Shown: piece after piece, positions 12,901-21,784 of the stretch
Numbering within the stretch: position 1 is the first letter of the stretch
Layout: each line of letters starts with the position of its first letter
NCBI GenBank assembly: GCA_007695245.1
Contig: REEE01000241.1
Coordinates: 1-38,217, forward strand
DNA from: Candidatus Competibacteraceae bacterium
GTDB lineage: Bacteria; Pseudomonadota; Gammaproteobacteria; Competibacterales; Competibacteraceae
DNA: 38,217 nt
Direction of reading: 5' to 3'
Program-made: the position numbers and the translations under genes
The notes under the pieces: generated by a model
What the model was told of the DNA's origin: nothing
The model's input: the letters and a program-made list of their open reading frames with translations, nothing else
Database searches by the model: none

Positions 12901-12999
12901 CGGCATCCGCGAATAGGCGAGCGCTCCGAGCAGGATGACCACAACGAAGGCGATATTGGCCAACGGATGGTTGGCGATCAGGGTGCGGAGGAAGCTCAC
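9895..12999 (-). CDS. RND-type efflux permease (AcrB/MMPL superfamily)
   Basis: A 1034-residue inner-membrane RND transporter using the proton gradient for export together with a periplasmic adaptor and an outer-membrane channel. It shows the twofold pattern: N-terminal MSFLRTLIANHPLANIAFVV helix, two large periplasmic porter regions, and TM4 with the paired aspartates D402/D403 in GMLVDDAVVVVEA. In TM10 the sequence GIAVNAAIVLIDA lacks the lysine of AcrB, as in several other RND subfamilies. The GTG start (12999) lies 1 nt after the stop of an adaptor-gene remnant (13001-13096), so adaptor and permease were once tightly coupled. The intact adaptor is now 1.8 kb away. Substrate unknown. Confidence 0.9.
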   Translation of the reverse strand: MSFLRTLIANHPLANIAFVVVILLGALAYSRMPREQDPEINFNWVNIATTLPGASAEDVERRVTNPLEDALRNVQDVRFITSSSRESVSVILVRFRDLPARVFDKRVTDLRREIQNKANAELPAEALDPEIIEITTSNGFPTAMVVLTGQADDETLRYAARTVRDDLEQIAGVDQVEALGFQEPELRVEFEPAALAARGLTAIELAEALRLWFRDVFAGKIKTADGEWLVRVSGAEPDLERLAGFYVQAPGAGPTPLDAVAQVRRGREEPRQLVAMDDQPAVLLSVTKIGYTNTLELVGRIREYIERQNPLLASSGLKLSLADDQTVATREALRIMQNNAAIGLLLVLGVCWLFLGARIAALVALGVVFSVTGTFVLLEAVGFTLNVSVLLGIVIVLGMLVDDAVVVVEAAYFRIERGLDALNAVLDALREVGLPVFAAVSTTIAAFLPLMLLPGIVGQFMFVIPFVVTVGLAVSLVEAFWILPAHVSGLGRHAIGRSRTQALRQKWTHRVRVKYTRLLIHVMRYPFRYLALAFALFLGAAAAVGGGWVKFQFFAFDPVRLYYVHVDMPPDAPLAETLRQTLAVEERVRAGLRDGEARSVVTMAGIKFTETEPLYGDQYGQIAVSLNPAAPEVRGLDDIIEGMRAAVVATPGPATISFLKLAGGPPTARPISVKVRADDRQELRAAADAVKAIVADLPGARDVVDDDTPGRAELNLRVDVPAARNAGLDPGQVARLVRLHVDGEVVADLRDRGEKVELRIRATPRTTQQVRELLDDPLALPGGGVTTLGALLVAEDRESLGLIRHWNLRRAITVEADLDREQIDTLTANNQLRAEWEKIRDRFPTTDLDFSGELDDIAESLEAMGPLFLLGVGLIYLILAARFRSYFQPLLILVTVPLAFTGVTLGLLLSGNPLSLYTLYGVIALTGIAVNAAIVLIDAANARRAAGMSALHATLYAARRRVIAILMTTSTTIAGLSSLAFGLAGKSLLWGPVAASIVWGLAFSSALTLFVVPVLYRIFMRKNPPRPALAKCAG

Positions 13000-13000
13000 T

Positions 13001-13096
13001 TCAGGGCGCTCCAGCGATAACGGTCACCGGCTGCCCGTCGCGCAGCGCCGGGTGGCCGCGCACCACGATTCAGGTCTCGGGCGGCAGGTCCACGGG
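13001..13096 (-). pseudogene. 3'-end remnant of the RND adaptor gene (96-bp repeat copy A)
   Basis: Read on the minus strand this gives VDLPPET-stop-IVVRGHPALRDG followed by QPVTVIAGAP and a TGA at 13003-13001. It matches the C-terminus of the adaptor at 14819-14914 with 91 of 96 bases identical. One substitution turns the Trp codon TGG into TGA. The similarity ends 2 nt before the vapC stop codon on one side and at the adaptor stop on the other. It shows where an adaptor gene once abutted the permease. Confidence 0.85.
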
Positions 13097-13098
13097 GG

Positions 13099-13467
13099 TT
13101 ACTCCGACTCAAAAGCCAAGCCCATGGATTTCGCTATCGTGCCGAGGCGCTTGTCCCGGGTCCACAGCAACACCGTTCCAGTCAGAGCAACCGCTGCCAG
13201 CAGATGGGCATCGATATAGCCGATGCCTTTGCCCATCAAGCCGCGCCGCTCGATGAAGAACAGCACCTCTGCGTCGGTGGCGCGCTGAGCGTTCGGTAAG
13301 TTCCGCAAGAGTGACAAAAACGCTTTACGGTTGGTCAGGTTGCCACACGCCAGTTCGCCGATGATGAACGGATGAATCAGTACCCGATGGGTATCGAGCA
13401 ACTCCACCAGCAACGGTTCGCCCGCGCGCAGGTGGTCGATCCAGACCGAAGTATCGACCAGAATCAT
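13099..13467 (-). CDS. VapC-type PIN-domain toxin ribonuclease
   Basis: A 122-residue PIN-domain protein. Conserved acidic residues that would bind the catalytic Mg2+ are all present: D5 (ILVDTSVWIDH), E38 (IIGELA), D86 (GYIDAHLL) and D105 (WTRDKRL). VapC toxins cleave tRNA or rRNA and stop translation when not bound by their antitoxin. The start overlaps the vapB stop by 4 nt (ATGA). Its own stop lies 2 nt from the 96-bp repeat copy A, so it sits at the very edge of the inserted segment. The toxin appears intact; its RNA target is unknown. Confidence 0.85.
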   Translation of the reverse strand: MILVDTSVWIDHLRAGEPLLVELLDTHRVLIHPFIIGELACGNLTNRKAFLSLLRNLPNAQRATDAEVLFFIERRGLMGKGIGYIDAHLLAAVALTGTVLLWTRDKRLGTIAKSMGLAFESE

Positions 13468-13661
13468 GATGGTTCGGACTGCCTTCTAGGCACCGGTTGC
13501 AGTTGCGGCTCGCTGCCGCCGAGTCGCGCCAGGCGGCGGGCGCTCTCCCGTTCGATCAAAGCCTTCAGGGCCTCTCGAATCAAGGCGGTTTTCTCAGCCA
13601 GTCCGGTCATGTCCCGCGCCTCGGCCAGAAGCTGATCGTCGATATTCAGTGTGGTGCGCAT
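13464..13661 (-). CDS. VapB-type ribbon-helix-helix antitoxin
   Basis: A 65-residue antitoxin. The N-terminus MRTTLNIDDQLLAEARDM is the usual DNA-binding strand-helix of VapB antitoxins of this type, followed by the helix ALIREALKALIERESARRLARLGG that leads to the toxin-neutralising tail. The start at 13661 is chosen over an upstream in-frame codon because MRTTLNID is the family N-terminus. It precedes and overlaps vapC. Antitoxins of this kind usually repress their own promoter as the VapBC complex; I see no clear operator upstream. Confidence 0.85.
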   Translation of the reverse strand: MRTTLNIDDQLLAEARDMTGLAEKTALIREALKALIERESARRLARLGGSEPQLQPVPRRQSEPS

Positions 13662-13841
13662 GGAACGGGCCTCGTCGACGGGGGTAAGCACAAAAATTAT
13701 ACGTCATCCGATGACGATTTTGATGCTCGCGCCGTCCGCGCCCGAGCGTTTTCGCGGAGACGGGGCGATCCGGCGCCTGCCTCTGGGTGGATGGTCGTTC
13801 CGTTCGAGTGATCGGAGCCAACCGAAACAGCGCGTTTTGGA

Positions 13842-13967
13842 TCAGCGGGTTCGCGGCGACCGAACGACCGTCGGGCGGTTGAGATCCACGATCGCGTATT
13901 CCGGCGGTTCGATCCGCGCCAGTTTCAGAGCCGCCGTGCCGCCGTGCGCGGCAACCACCGCGAAGCT
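13842..13967 (-). pseudogene. Fragment resembling a RegA/PrrA-type receiver domain
   Basis: A 41-codon open stretch between two stops, with no start codon, translates to SFAVVAAHGGTAALKLAR followed by IEPPEYAIVDLNRPTVV. The PPEYAIVDL core resembles the phosphorylated-aspartate strand of RegA/PrrA/ActR response regulators (PPAYAVVDL in PrrA). Nothing of the rest of a receiver or of the DNA-binding domain is visible, so it is at best a relic. Chance resemblance is possible. Confidence 0.3.
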
Positions 13968-13980
13968 TCAGGGGGTGATG

Positions 13981-14009
13981 ATTGTCGTTCGAATGTCGAA
14001 CGTGACAAT
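13981..14009. promoter_or_regulatory. Inverted repeat upstream of the CBS gene
   Basis: ATTGTCGTTCGA (13981-13992) is complementary to TCGAAC and GACAAT (13996-14009) around a 3-nt centre, with two extra bases (14002-14003) in the right arm. This gives 12 pairs. The centre lies about 58 nt before the transcription start expected from TATAAT at 14041, a common place for an activator site. A binding factor is not known. Confidence 0.4.
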
Positions 14010-14017
14010 TTGCCACA

Positions 14018-14046
14018 TTTATCAACGGGCAATAATCTTTTATAAT
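14018..14046 (+). promoter_or_regulatory. Promoter candidate of the CBS-domain gene
   Basis: A perfect TATAAT (14041-14046) is preceded at 17 bp by a weak -35 (TTTATC, 14018-14023). Together with the inverted repeat just upstream this suggests an activator-dependent promoter, with a leader of roughly 55 nt. Confidence 0.4.
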
Positions 14047-14109
14047 GGCTGGCAAATAACTAAATGGTCGCGGTTGTTTGATTGTGCCCATACACAGGAG
14101 AGAGCTTTG

Positions 14110-14709
14110 ATGAAACATTCTTATCGCCCGTTGCCGCTGTACCGGCTAGGCCCGGGAATCCGCCATGCTCGACCCAGGCAGCAGTTGCCCCGGCGCATCA
14201 CTACCGACGACCCGGCGTTATCGGTGATGACCGACCTCTGCCAGGTTACCGCCGTTACCACCGAATTATCGACCCCTCTCAGCAAGGGGCTGGACCTCAT
14301 GGTCAAACGCGGAGTACGCGTCCTGTTGGTCGTCGACGCCGACGACAACCTCCTTGGGTTGATCACCAGTCGCGACGTCAACGGAGAAAAGGTCGACCGG
14401 ATTCTGACTAAGGCCGGTTGTACCTGCGAGGACTTGCTCGTCTCCGATGTCATGACCCTCCGGGCGAAGCTGGAAGTGTTGATGATGGAAGACATCCTGG
14501 GCGCGCGAGTGGGCGACCTCATCGCGACCCTGCGGCAGGTCAACCGCCAGCACGCTCTGGTATTGGACGTCGATCCCGAAACCGAAATACCGACGGTGCG
14601 CGGCATTTTCTCGCTGTCGGAGATCGGCTTGCGGTTGGGGTTGAGCATCAATCCATCGCGGCGGCCGACCACCTATGCCGAATTGGAGCAAGCCGGAGCC
14701 GCGTTGTAA
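14110..14709 (+). CDS. CBS-domain protein
   Basis: A 199-residue protein. The ATG at 14110 is fixed by a strong ribosome site AGGAGAG (14096-14102, 7 nt spacing); the open frame further upstream is not coding. After a basic N-terminal ~35 residues there are two CBS modules: ~38-92 (VMTDLCQVTAVTTE... VRVLLVVDADDNLLGLITSRD) and ~105-175 (VGDLIATLRQVNRQHALVLDV... RGIFSLSEIGLRLG). CBS pairs bind adenosine nucleotides and act as energy or redox sensors. There is no enzymatic domain, so it is probably a stand-alone regulator or partner protein. It is the only plus-strand gene in the island that splits the efflux operon. Function unknown. Confidence 0.8.
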   Translation: MKHSYRPLPLYRLGPGIRHARPRQQLPRRITTDDPALSVMTDLCQVTAVTTELSTPLSKGLDLMVKRGVRVLLVVDADDNLLGLITSRDVNGEKVDRILTKAGCTCEDLLVSDVMTLRAKLEVLMMEDILGARVGDLIATLRQVNRQHALVLDVDPETEIPTVRGIFSLSEIGLRLGLSINPSRRPTTYAELEQAGAAL

Positions 14710-14818
14710 CCGCCGCGCTGGCGAACGGTGCCGATCCAGTCCGTGACCATTCTTCACGATCGGTGGCGTCATGAGGTTTTCCGCCAATGCGGGCTTCGGA
14801 CGCGAATCTCGACCCCCG

Positions 14819-14914
14819 TCAGCGCGCTCCAACAATAACGGTCACCGGCTGCCCGTCGCGCAGCGCCTGGTGGCCGCGCACCACGATCCAGGTCTCGGGC
14901 GGCAGGTCCACGGG
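14819..14914. repeat. 96-bp direct repeat copy B (within adaptor 3' end)
   Basis: The last 32 codons of the intact adaptor gene, including its stop, match 13001-13096 in the same orientation with five differences. Together the copies bracket a 1,722-bp segment. Outside 14819-14914 the flanks are unrelated. Confidence 0.85.
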
Positions 14915-15838
14915 GAACGGCCGGCCCTCCTGAGCGGCGGGCGCGGGCACAAAGCGGGCGCGGCCATCCTCCACCACGAACGCGCCCAACTCCTGGTCGC
15001 GTTTGACCATCAGCTCGGGCGGCAGCAGAACGTCCGCCGTCGTCCAGCGCAGCGTACCGCTGCTGCCGGCCGGCGCGGCCCGGTCGATGAAAGTCAGCCG
15101 CGCGACCCGGGTCCGCGCCGCGGCTTCCACCACCGGCGACAGCCGCAGCAGTCTGGCCGGATAGCGGTGGCCCTGACTCTCAAAGACGAGGTCGGTTGCC
15201 TGGGGTAGCGCCTCGGCGTGGGCCGCCTGGATCTGGGCCTCGATCTCGGCCGGAGCCAAATCCACCAGCCGGAGCAGGATCGCGCCCGGCAGAGCCAGCC
15301 CGCCGACCTGGGCCTGGCGCTCCAGCACCACACCGGCGAACGGGGCCACGATGCGGCACTTGTCCACGTTGCGGGCCGCGATCGCCCGTTGCGCCCGCGC
15401 GACGTCGAGGTCGGCGCGGGCGGCTTGCACCCCGGTTTCCAACTCCAACACTTCGTCATCGGCCACGAATTGCCGCTGTTTCAGGCTTTGCGCCCGCCGC
15501 AATCGCTGTTCGGCCAGCGCCACCCGGGCTCGGGCCGCCGCGACCTGCGCGTCGGCCTGAGCCAAGGCGAGACGGTAATCGGCGGGATCGAGTTCCAGCA
15601 GCAGTTGTCCGGCGCTGACCGTCCCGCCGACCTCGGCATGAACGCGCAGCACCTTGGCTGTCACTTCAGCGGCGATGTGACTGTCGTTGGGAGCGATCGC
15701 GCTGGCCGGAGCCGTGCCGGAGACCGGCAACGCTACCTCGCGCAGCGGTTGTACGCCGACCTCGACCGGCGCGGCGGCATGGGCGAGCGCGATGCAACCG
15801 AGGAGCAAGCCGGCCGAAAGAAAGACGCGTCGTGGCAT
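14819..15838 (-). CDS. RND efflux periplasmic adaptor (membrane fusion protein)
   Basis: A 339-residue HlyD/AcrA-type adaptor that links an inner-membrane RND pump to an outer-membrane channel. An N-terminal signal peptide (MPRRVFLSAGLLLGCIALAHA) fixes the start at 15838; the open frame continues upstream without a credible signal. It has a biotinyl-lipoyl half-motif (VLRVHAEVGGTVSAGQLLLELD), an Ala/Arg-rich alpha-hairpin (~90-150), the second lipoyl half (IVAPFAGVVLERQAQVGG) and beta-barrel and membrane-proximal domains. It is on the same strand as the permease at 9895-12999 but separated by the repeat-flanked island. It is short compared with AcrA (about 400 residues) but apparently complete. 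Confidence 0.87.
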   Translation of the reverse strand: MPRRVFLSAGLLLGCIALAHAAAPVEVGVQPLREVALPVSGTAPASAIAPNDSHIAAEVTAKVLRVHAEVGGTVSAGQLLLELDPADYRLALAQADAQVAAARARVALAEQRLRRAQSLKQRQFVADDEVLELETGVQAARADLDVARAQRAIAARNVDKCRIVAPFAGVVLERQAQVGGLALPGAILLRLVDLAPAEIEAQIQAAHAEALPQATDLVFESQGHRYPARLLRLSPVVEAAARTRVARLTFIDRAAPAGSSGTLRWTTADVLLPPELMVKRDQELGAFVVEDGRARFVPAPAAQEGRPFPVDLPPETWIVVRGHQALRDGQPVTVIVGAR

Positions 15839-15964
15839 GGATGGGCATCTCAAGCGTTGGAGCGAACGGCGTGAGTCTGAGGGAGGATGGCGAAGTCGCA
15901 CCATCTCGCAGTGCAGGTAGACAGCGCCGACACCCAGTTCTTTCTCGACGGTTACCAAAAAACT

Positions 15965-15988
15965 CCTCCGGGGGATTTTCCAGTGCTA
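15965..15988. repeat. Diverged copy of the 24-bp inverted-repeat sequence
   Basis: This stretch, with the core ATTTTCCAGTG (15975-15985), matches the left arm of the 121-bp element (16668-16691) at 18 of 24 positions, same orientation. It directly abuts the left end of the truncated IS1380-family element. Confidence 0.55.
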
Positions 15989-15990
15989 GC

Positions 15991-16667
15991 CCGGATTATT
16001 CATAAAAAAGGGCGAACCTCGTTCAACTCATTGATATAATTCGTGTTACGTCAATAACGCTTCGGAGAAGCCAAACGAGATCGCCCATGTCCCAGTCTAC
16101 CCCAGAGCCGTTGCGATTTCCTCCCGTCGCTGGTCTGACCGTGCGCGCCGAGTTCGATGGCGGGGCGCTGTCGTCGGACTTTGGCCCCCTGATTCTACGG
16201 GGCGTCGACCAGCGGATCGGGCTGATCGACCGTCTGGTCCAGGCCGTCGACGACCGGCGTCATCCGTCGTATGTTGCGCACTCCCTGCACGACCTGTTCA
16301 CCCAACGGATTTTTCAGATCGCCTGTGGCTACGCCGACGGCAATGATGCCAATACACTGCGGACTGACCCGCTGTTTAAGCTGGGGGTGAATCGTCATCC
16401 CTTGGTCCAGGCCCTGGACTTGGCCAGCGCCCCCACCTTCTCCCGGCTGGAGAATGCGGTCTCGACCAGAGACCTCTATCGCTTGGCGCGGGCCTTCGTC
16501 GATCAGTTCATCACCAGCTATCCTCAGCCCCCGGCCGCGATCGTGCTGGACTTGGATCATTCCGAGGATCCCACGCACGGACCGCAGGAATTCAGCATCT
16601 ACAATCACTACTACCGCCATCACTGCTACGTGCCGCTGTTGCTCTTTGAGGGCCTCTCGGGAAAATT
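15991..16667 (+). mobile_element. Truncated IS1380-family insertion sequence (left part)
   Basis: The left end is placed at about 15991, where CCGGATTATTCATAAAA resembles IS1380-type termini; the exact end base is uncertain. It contains the transposase 5' half starting at 16087 and breaks off at the 121-bp inverted-repeat element. No matching right terminus is visible, so it is a non-autonomous remnant. Confidence 0.6.
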
Positions 16668-16677
16668 CTTCCTGTAA
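16087..16677 (+). pseudogene. IS1380-family transposase, truncated
   Basis: The N-terminal ~192 residues of an IS1380-family DDE transposase, whose full length is usually 420-450 residues. Seen are the N-terminal region (FDGGALSSDFGPLILRGVDQRIG), the helical part HSLHDLFTQRIFQIACGYADGNDANTLR, and the first catalytic aspartate region IVLDLDHSEDPTHG with YNHYYRHHCYVPLLLFEG. At about 16667 the sequence runs into the inverted-repeat element and stops at TAA (16675-16677), losing the remaining catalytic residues. It cannot be an active transposase by itself. Confidence 0.85.
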
Positions 16678-16788
16678 ATTTTCCAGTGATAAATTTGGGG
16701 TGGTCGCTTCCTTTAGTAGGCTCAGATATGGCCAACACTACAAGTTGTGGTTGCCTGACAAAGGTATCACTGGAAAATTTACAGGAAG
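16668..16788. mobile_element. 121-bp MITE-like element with perfect 24-bp inverted repeats
   Basis: The arms 16668-16691 and 16765-16788 are perfectly complementary over 24 bp, both containing the core ATTTTCCAGTG or its complement, and enclose 73 bp without a usable ORF. It sits exactly at the break of the IS1380 transposase. I see no clear target-site duplication. Size and perfect terminal repeats suggest a MITE or the paired ends of a deleted insertion sequence; a strong RNA hairpin is the alternative role. Confidence 0.65.
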
Positions 16789-16816
16789 TTTAATTTTGAA
16801 ACACTGCGATTTTGGT

Positions 16817-16907: not shown

Positions 16908-18244
<1,337 letters not shown>

Positions 18245-18272
<28 letters not shown>

Positions 18273-20371
18273 GGCTCGGCCTCCCCTGTTTGCAACTCCC
18301 GATCCGTCGCGACCGGAGCCGCGATTCGCGGCAAACGCAAGGTAAACACCGTCCCTTGGCCCGGCGCGCTGACGACCGTCAGCTCGCCTCCCGCCCCCCG
18401 CGCGAACTCGTGACTCTCGTAAACACCGATGCCCATGCCAGCATTCCCCTTGGTGGTCGTGAACGGCCGAAACAATTTCTCGCGGATGAACTTCTCGTCC
18501 ATGCCACAGCCATCGTCGCGGATGGCGGCGACCGCCATCCGATCTTCAGCGCGAACGACGACCTCGACCGCGCCATCGGGACCGGTCGCCTCCTGGGCAT
18601 TCTGAATCAGATGCTCCAGAACCGCGTTCAACCGTTCCTGATCCACCCGCACCCACGGCTCGTCACCCGGCTCGCCGCGCAGCACGGGCGCCGGCCGTCG
18701 AGCGGCGCGGGCCGCGACCGCCTGGCGCGCCGCGACTGCCAACGCCAGCGACCGCACCCGACCCGACACGGGTTCCTTGCGCAACTGCGCCAACAAGCGA
18801 TTCATCCGCTCGGTGGCGTTGGCGACCGTGCGGAAGGCGTCCTCGACAAACGCCGGATTGGCCTTATGGCGGGCGGCATTAGCCCCCACCAGGGCCAGTT
18901 GCGCGGCGATATTCTTGAGATCATGCACCACATAGGCCGACAGGCGATGAAAAGCCTCAAATTGGCGAGACTGCCACAAGGCCTCGCTGGCCTCCAGCAA
19001 CGCCACGTAGCCCGCCACCTGACGGCCCGCCGTCTTGAGCAGGTCGCGGTCTTCCCAGTTGAGTCGCTGGCGGGCGCGCCCCTCGGCCAACACCAAAAAT
19101 CCTCGCAACTCCTCACCGTGTAACAACGGCACCACCAGCCAGGCGCGCGGCAGTTCCAGAAACCAGTCCGGCAGCCGCAGATCGGCATAGACTTCCGGTT
19201 CCTGAACGTACTCGTCCAACTCGATCACCCACTGCCGCTGCTCCAAAAACCGAACCAGCGATCCATCGGCGGGTTCCCGGCGCGCTTCAGGTTCCCGCAG
19301 ATTCCAAGTCGCCTCCAGCACGAAGGCACCCGATTCCCGCCGGGTCCAGAGCAGGCCGCCGGCGCTCTTCACGATTTCGGCGGCGGCGCGGATGGCGCGC
19401 TGCCGCAGCGGCTCGTTGGGTTCGCCCGTCGACAGGGTCTGGGTGAACTTCAACCATTCCTCACGATAGTCGTATTTGAGGTTGAAGAAGTGTTTGTTTA
19501 ACAGCACCAACACCTTGGCGCGCAACTGTCCGGAAAAGAGCAGCACGGCCAACAGCACGCCGGCACCGGCTAGAAAGGCCAGTTGCAGGGCGGTTCCCCA
19601 GCTGCCGCCATAAGCCCGGATGTAGTAGCCCATGCCCGCCATCGCCAAGAGATAAACGCCGGCCCCGAGGATGGCAGCCGAGTGCAGCACGACCTTGCGG
19701 GAGACGAACACGTCCAGCGACCACTCCGGGTTCCGGGCCGCCGCCACGCCGATCAACGGGACCACCATGGCCCCGATCAGGCCGCGCGCCTCCCACATCG
19801 CCGCGTCCAGCCGCTTGAACAACAGGGCGTCGGCGTACAGAAAGAAATCGTAGGCGAACATCAAGCCCAGTCCCAAATACAGGAATTTGGTGGCCCAGCG
19901 TCGCTGCGGGTGCGTGTTGCGGAATAATTGTTCGATCAGCGCCAACCCGGCGATGGCCAAGCCGATGTGCCCCAGAATCGCGGCGTCGGCGGGCGGTTCG
20001 AAGGGCGGACTCCACAACTCGCTCAAGCTGATCCCCAGCAGCAAGACCCCGCAGCCGATCAGCGCCGGGCCGGCCCAGCGCAACCAACGGCCCGCGCCCA
20101 TCTCCCGGACCAGCGGTTCCAGCAGATGCATCAGGAACAGCAGCCACGCCACGTTGCGCGCCACTTCCAGCAGCTGATACAGCCAATCGAGACCCACCGC
20201 CTGAGCGGCGGCGTAATAGGACGCCCGCAAGGCCCACAGCAGGTTGATCAGCACCGCGGCGACCAGCAGCCCCCCCTGCAAGCGACCTCGCCAGCTCGTC
20301 AACAGCAGCAGGAACAGCAGCGCCCAGCCCACCGCCGCCGCGCCGTAACTCAACGCTCCGAGGTTGATCAT
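18245..20371 (-). CDS. prsK: PrsK, PEP-CTERM system sensor histidine kinase
   Basis: A ~708-residue membrane kinase. The N-terminal third has about eight or nine hydrophobic helices (~1-290), followed by a GAF-like domain (~310-465). The dimerisation box YVVHDLKNIAAQ has its phospho-accepting His at about residue 483, and the ATPase domain shows IQNAQEATG (N box), DDGCGMDE and GMGIGVYESHEFARGAGGEL (G boxes). This architecture is that of PrsK, partner of PrsR. I use ATG at 20371; an in-frame GTG at 20380 would add three residues, and neither has a clear ribosome site. The gene follows the sugar transferase by 6-15 nt, so all three form one minus-strand operon. The signal sensed is unknown. Confidence 0.88.
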
Positions 20372-20386
20372 GGTCGCCACGACGCG

Positions 20387-21784
20387 CTAATGCGCCCCTT
20401 TGCCCCAGAGAATGGTGTGGACGGTTTGCAGCAGAATAATGACATCGAAAAAGAAACTGTAATTCTTGATGTAGTACAAATCGTATTGCAGTTTCTCGCG
20501 CGCATCCTCTTCCGAAGCCCCGTAGGGATAACAAATCTGCGCCCAGCCGGTAATCCCGGGATTGACCATGTGCCGCATGGTGTAGAAAGGAATGTTTTTG
20601 CTGAGTTCGGCCACGAACTGCGGCCGTTCCGGACGGGGACCGACGAAGCTCATATGGCCCCACAGGACGTTGAACAGTTGCGGCAATTCGTCGATGCGGG
20701 TTTCGCGCAGGATTCCGCCGACCCGGGTGATCCGACTGTCTCCGGCCTGCGCCCAGCGGGCGACGCCGTCCCGCTCGGCGTCCACGCTCATGCTGCGGAA
20801 CTTGATCAACTCGAAGATCTCGTTGTTGCGACCGATTCGGGTCTGCCGGTACAGAATGGGGCCGCGCCCCCCTGACTCGATCCAGATCGCCAAGGTGGCG
20901 AAGGCCATGAACGGCCAGGCCACCGCCAGCAGCAGCAGGCTGGCGACCACGTCGAACAACCGTTTGAGCACCCGGTTGACCAGCGCCTTCTGGAAACCCT
21001 CTTCAAAGATCATATTGCTCGGCCGCAGGGCGTCGAGTTGAATTTTGCCGGTTTCCCGCTCGAAAAAAGCCAGAAAATGGCTTATCGAAATGCCATCGAT
21101 CCGACAATGCAACACTTCGTCGATCGGAAAACCCTTGCGTCGATCATCCATCGCCACCACGATTTCATCGATACGCAGTTCGTCGGCCAGATCCGGCAGC
21201 GTGCTGGTGACCTGGCGCATGCGGGTGGGCGGTACGCCGGGTTCTTCGTCTTCATGGACCTGAATGTACCCCGGGATGACGAAGCCCACGTTGCTACGTT
21301 GCTGCAACTCTTCGAGCCGCGCCGCGTTCCGGCCCACACCCAGCACCAGCACGCGCCGTTTGAGCAGGGCGTGATCGGAAGCCTTGAAAAACCCGAAGCG
21401 CAGCAGCAACACCCCGACAAAGGCGATCCCGAACGCCAGACTGAATTCGCCGCGACTGAGGGCAATCTCCGGAAGCAGATAGTAAACCAGACTCATGGCG
21501 AACAGCCCGAACAGGAAGCTGATGCCCACCCGCAGCAGCATGTCGGCCCGGCCGTTCCACAGGTTGCGCTCGTACAGACCCATCGCGATCATGATCGTGG
21601 TCATGACCAGCACGAACGCCAGAGCGCCGGACGCGACGTCGCCGAGCATCGGCCAGGATTCCCGACCGAACCGGAGCCCGTTTAACGCCTGGCCGAAATA
21701 GACCGCCAGAAACAGGTAGAGTATTTCCGCGAGCAGCAGCGTCAACAACGCTCGGGAGATATAATGTTTGAACAAACGAATCAT
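20387..21784 (-). CDS. PEP-CTERM-associated sugar transferase (EpsB-like initiating enzyme)
   Basis: A 465-residue polyprenyl-phosphate sugar-1-phosphate transferase. Four or five N-terminal helices (~10-135) precede a nucleotide-binding-like region ([12 protein letters not shown] at ~142) and the C-terminal catalytic domain ([12 protein letters not shown], then [44 protein letters not shown]). It transfers a sugar phosphate from a UDP-sugar to undecaprenyl phosphate, the first step of exopolysaccharide assembly at the inner membrane. The long N-terminal form next to prsK/prsR fits the exosortase-linked EPS type of this family. It is the first gene of the operon, divergent from the UDP-sugar genes. 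The donor sugar is not deducible. Confidence 0.88.

Follow-up and report, generated by a model that had tools for sequence, protein, structure and literature searches.

Tandem duplication followed by random loss (TDRL) is a recognised route by which gene order changes, and it is best documented in animal mitochondrial genomes (PMC5122201). Spontaneous tandem duplications are also found in bacterial chromosomes; in Pseudomonas fluorescens SBW25, for example, they are recent and span 45-290 kb (PMC7661048). Here we analyse a window of 38,217 nucleotides, positions 1 to 38,217 of contig REEE01000241.1 from a Candidatus Competibacteraceae bacterium, which was taken from a draft genome of 389 contigs. 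In this window the adaptor and permease genes of an RND efflux pump are parted by a vapBC toxin-antitoxin pair, a response-regulator scrap and a CBS-domain gene, providing a clear small example of a split bacterial operon. The locus shares with TDRL the change of neighbour order, the single surviving copy of each gene and the truncated pseudogene relic. However, it lies on a bacterial chromosome, an insertion-sequence relic may have joined in the second loss, and the duplicated intermediate is a reconstruction. As in SBW25, the event would be a direct-order duplication in a bacterium that supplied raw material for rearrangement, but the duplicated unit would measure only a few kb and be old enough for its copies to have diverged by 5%. 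The vapBC pair resembles other type II toxin-antitoxin modules in having a PIN-domain toxin that follows a VapB gene with a 4-nt overlap, and is unusual in its location only. Our literature search returned no report of duplication and loss splitting a bacterial operon, which is not to be taken as evidence of absence.

A repeated adaptor end beside the permease

The original prediction, made from the sequence alone, had described two copies of the last 32 codons of the RND adaptor in the same orientation (13001-13096 and 14819-14914; 91 of 96 positions identical), and repeat comparison within the window agrees. The full repeat covers 13001-13097 and 14819-14915, with 92 of 97 positions identical at a spacing of 1818, so that a truncated extra copy of the neighbouring gene lies in the same orientation as the intact one, with about 1721 bp (13098-14818) between the two repeat copies. 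Since the next best match to the 97 bp elsewhere in the window reaches only 47/97 (mean 27), the repeat is not a chance resemblance. The stop codon of the inner copy is 1 nt from the GTG start of the permease (12997-12999), and the inner copy carries a Trp-to-stop change (TGG to TGA at 13070); both features had been noted from the outset and can be read directly. Domain and DNA matches likewise bear out the early assignment of vapBC, a response-regulator scrap and a CBS gene to the interval between the repeats, the scrap amounting to only 88 bp. The features of the locus are collected in Table 1.

Table 1. Features of the split efflux locus, with positions in the window
Feature	Position	Strand	Evidence and remarks
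RND efflux permease, intact, 1034 aa	9895..12999	-	PF00873 E=8e-153; GTG start; adjoins adaptor in relatives
Inner relic, final 32 codons plus stop codon of second adaptor copy	13001..13097	-	Repeat alignment; a stop (TGG to TGA) and two amino-acid changes
vapC toxin, PIN domain, 122 aa	13099..13467	-	PF01850; 82% protein identity to vapC of G016; stop codon abuts relic
vapB antitoxin, 75 aa	13464..13691	-	PF09957 E=3e-17; 87.5% identical to vapB of G016
regA/prrA-type response-regulator remnant, 88 bp	13879..13966	-	77-81% DNA identity to regA of G007, G011 and G021
CBS-domain gene, 199 aa	14110..14709	+	PF00571; promoter-like site 14019-14046 (promoter scan)
Outer repeat, 3' end of intact adaptor	14819..14915	-	Repeat alignment
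RND periplasmic adaptor, intact, 339 aa	14819..15838	-	TIGR01730 E=5e-40; 64-77% protein identity to family adaptors
Adaptor leader, like that of G016 up to the vapC start point of G016	15839..15905	-	Alignment to L062; leader alignment
IS1380-like relic	15959..16797	+	PF13701; transposase N-terminus 16087-16677

The two repeat copies differ at 13005, 13014, 13016, 13050 and 13070, and have no perfect run longer than 33 bp in common. We read the polarity of these differences against 13 aligned relatives, which allowed four of the five sites to be polarised, 13014 being ambiguous. Three of the four polarised changes fall in the inner copy and all three alter the protein (Arg to Pro at 13005, Gln to Pro at 13050 and Trp to stop at 13070), and the only change derived in the outer copy, at 13016, is synonymous. 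Small as these numbers are, they show the extra copy decaying and the full copy conserved. Because two amino-acid changes and a stop are derived in it, the inner copy behaves as a pseudogene relic. A GGAG motif resembling a ribosome-binding site lies inside this relic, 9 nt upstream of the permease start, and occupies the same place in most relatives; the relic was perhaps retained because the putative ribosome-binding site of the permease sits in it.

Gene order in related genomes

For comparison we used 39 genomes of the family, which include no further species from the genus to which the window belongs. The uninterrupted adaptor-permease pair for which the original prediction proposed to look is present in 15 family members: each matches the permease start and has an adaptor end directly before the permease, and in 14 of these 15, read closely, that end is part of a single adaptor of full or nearly full length. 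None of the family members with pump genes has two adaptors, or vapBC between adaptor and permease. The window's own genome contains no second full adaptor, no second vapBC and no second copy of the window's CBS gene, the nearest relative of the latter being a 71%-identical paralogue on another contig (C235).

In one genome of genus g9 (G016), vapBC adjoins the upstream end of the adaptor, on the opposite side from that seen in the window. The adaptor and its leader (window 14819-15899) align to L062:12502-13581 of this genome, and vapBC (window 13105-13727) aligns to L062:13602-14224, 20 bp beyond the adaptor leader, which gives a permuted order. DNA identity between G016 and the window is 82% for vapBC, 83% for the permease and 79% for the adaptor; vapBC is thus about as similar as the two pump genes, as expected for vertical descent. 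A second g9 genome (G031) retains a scrap of vapC, 94 bp long, upstream of the adaptor as in G016. The ancestral-type order is therefore found in relatives for all but the CBS part, the CBS gene not being next to the adaptor in G016. The leader alignment places G016 closest, among the relatives, to the leader of the window adaptor as far as the vapC boundary. Taken together, the gene order of G016, the scrap of G031 and this leader indicate that vapBC was most likely already the neighbour of the adaptor, with the adjacency seen in two genomes of a single genus and the window lineage placed in gene trees with modest support only. In most relatives, vapBC is absent or reduced to a scrap. In the window it is predicted to be a complete module, with a PIN toxin whose conserved acidic residues can be read in the translation and a VapB gene upstream of it.

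The CBS gene runs opposite to the other genes of the segment. The region around it (14001-14755) has orthologue-like matches in G021 (contig C51, 84%, the closest) and in G022 (contig C70, 77%). In G007, G011 and G021, regA is about 2 kb from a CBS gene, and the CBS-regB-regA block of these genomes lies at separate loci, beside a cytochrome c peroxidase-type operon, pepN or both. The window scrap is a piece of regA whose order and orientation relative to the CBS gene match this block, and regB is missing from the window, with no orthologue in the rest of the genome. The CBS/scrap part is therefore an eroded chromosomal block. A search of the window's own genome for a donor of this block gave no match to the cytochrome c peroxidase neighbour; pepN, the neighbour of regA in G011, lies on contig C37 beside a glutamine synthetase gene, with the homology to G011 stopping just before pepN. 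The fillers at 13728-13878 and 14756-14818 matched nothing among the compared loci beyond a few edge bases. In G030, a CBS gene some 2 kb upstream of the adaptor was considered as support for an ancestral adaptor-CBS link and left out, since the family is rich in CBS paralogues and the G030 gene, which has a hemE-like neighbour, shows an identity of only 72%.

In several family members (L117, L118 and L119; for example L118:6339-8903), a CBS gene is divergent from an ActS/ActR-like regB/regA redox two-component pair, and the CBS protein might be functionally part of this redox system. Further CBS paralogues occur elsewhere in family members.

Histories of the locus

The history that we favour, with a probability of about two in three, is that a local tandem duplication followed by complementary losses moved vapBC between the pump genes and left behind a dead 97-base adaptor end. 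The ancestral order would have been permease, adaptor, leader and vapBC, followed by the CBS/response-regulator segment. Through a short tandem duplication of adaptor-vapBC-CBS, another adaptor would then have come to lie on the far side of the CBS gene. From the first copy, we infer, most of the adaptor and its leader were lost, with the final 97 bp left beside the permease; from the second copy, vapBC and whatever followed would have gone, where the IS1380-like relic is now found, an element that may have taken part in this second loss. The most likely net change, judged from the gene orders compared, would be from permease-adaptor-vapBC to permease-(adaptor end)-vapBC-CBS-adaptor. A single history of this kind accounts for the repeat, the gene order, the decay and the presence of one full adaptor and one vapBC. 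Loss of a tandem second adaptor had been offered in the original prediction as an alternative to insertion, and this part survives in essence, as duplication and then loss; a genome with two full adaptors, which would represent the intermediate, was found nowhere among the 39 family genomes, where the window's genus has no other species, and such an intermediate should not persist for long.

The weak point of duplication and loss is that the two inferred deletions share an endpoint, the leader/vapC boundary, to within about 20 bp. A shared endpoint makes a single rearrangement the simpler account, unless erosion stopped at functional borders. The main rival is therefore a one-step translocation, in which vapBC-CBS (or the adaptor with its leader) was moved by template-switching or break-repair and 97 bp were duplicated on the way, with no full tandem intermediate; its product and relics would look almost identical to those observed. 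However, several deletions have taken place here, as the regA scrap by the CBS gene and the absence of sequence past the leader show, and step-wise loss thus comes at no extra cost. We regard the one-step move as unlikely.

Far less probable is insertion of a foreign 1.7-kb toxin-antitoxin/CBS island with duplication of the adaptor end as its target site; insertion with duplication of a gene end was one of the two histories named in the original prediction. The segment does have direct repeats at its bounds and does contain a toxin-antitoxin pair, but usual target-site duplications are far shorter than 97 bp. Moreover, vapBC borders the other side of the same adaptor in G016, where it is intact, and in G031, as a scrap, at an identity like that of vertical descent, and the CBS part derives from a family-wide chromosomal locus. 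Neither a transposase or integrase nor inverted ends were found between the repeats, and the unit was not found elsewhere in the window's own genome or at the loci of relatives. The inserted island is thus not supported, and the arrangement is most likely an ordinary rearrangement relic.

About as little credence is due to an assembly artefact, namely a misjoin of strain variants, for which the fragmented state of the draft would speak. The five differences between the copies make a simple repeat collapse unlikely, and the junctions are biologically sensible and the decay polarity coherent.

On paper, recombination between the repeats could delete vapBC and the CBS gene and rejoin adaptor and permease, and an exchange on the permease side of the stop codon would leave the rejoined adaptor free of it; given the short longest run shared by the copies, such deletion should be rare. 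An excised form was not seen among the genomes compared, none of which shares the arrangement. The further idea that vapBC eliminates cells which have lost the segment in this way, and so keeps the operon split, is the least plausible of all: both genes look intact and sit between direct repeats, but the repeats are diverging, vapBC of G016 lies outside any such repeat, and its loss or reduction to a scrap in most other relatives argues against strong self-preservation over evolutionary time. A resident toxin-antitoxin pair that has merely changed side can mimic an inserted island, and direct repeats flanking such a pair should not be taken as proof of mobility or addiction.

Possible consequences and neighbouring elements

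On the minus strand the order is now vapB, vapC, relic and permease, with some 100 nt between the vapC stop codon and the start of the permease, and a scan of the window found no convincing terminator between vapBC and the permease. This layout would allow the permease to be under the vapBC promoter, and so to be produced upon degradation of VapB and independently of the adaptor; we consider this improbable. In two relatives (G034 and G033; L072 and L073), the permease seems internally deleted or broken up, with gaps against the window permease, which suggests either pump loss in some relatives or faulty drafts there.

The IS1380-like relic begins just past the point at which the upstream homology of the adaptor ends. 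At its far end lies a MITE-like element of 121 bp (16668-16788) with 30-nt terminal inverted repeats (CTTCCTGTAAATTTTCCAGTGATAAATTTG), which occurs at about 20 places in the window's own genome, the longer matches being 82-98% identical. The ends of this element resemble the end of the adjoining relic, which may, on this likeness, be its source. Further along, at 16908-21784, a PrsR response regulator, a PrsK histidine kinase and an XrtA/PEP-CTERM-type glycosyltransferase follow one another, an arrangement like that of PEP-CTERM/exosortase exopolysaccharide clusters.
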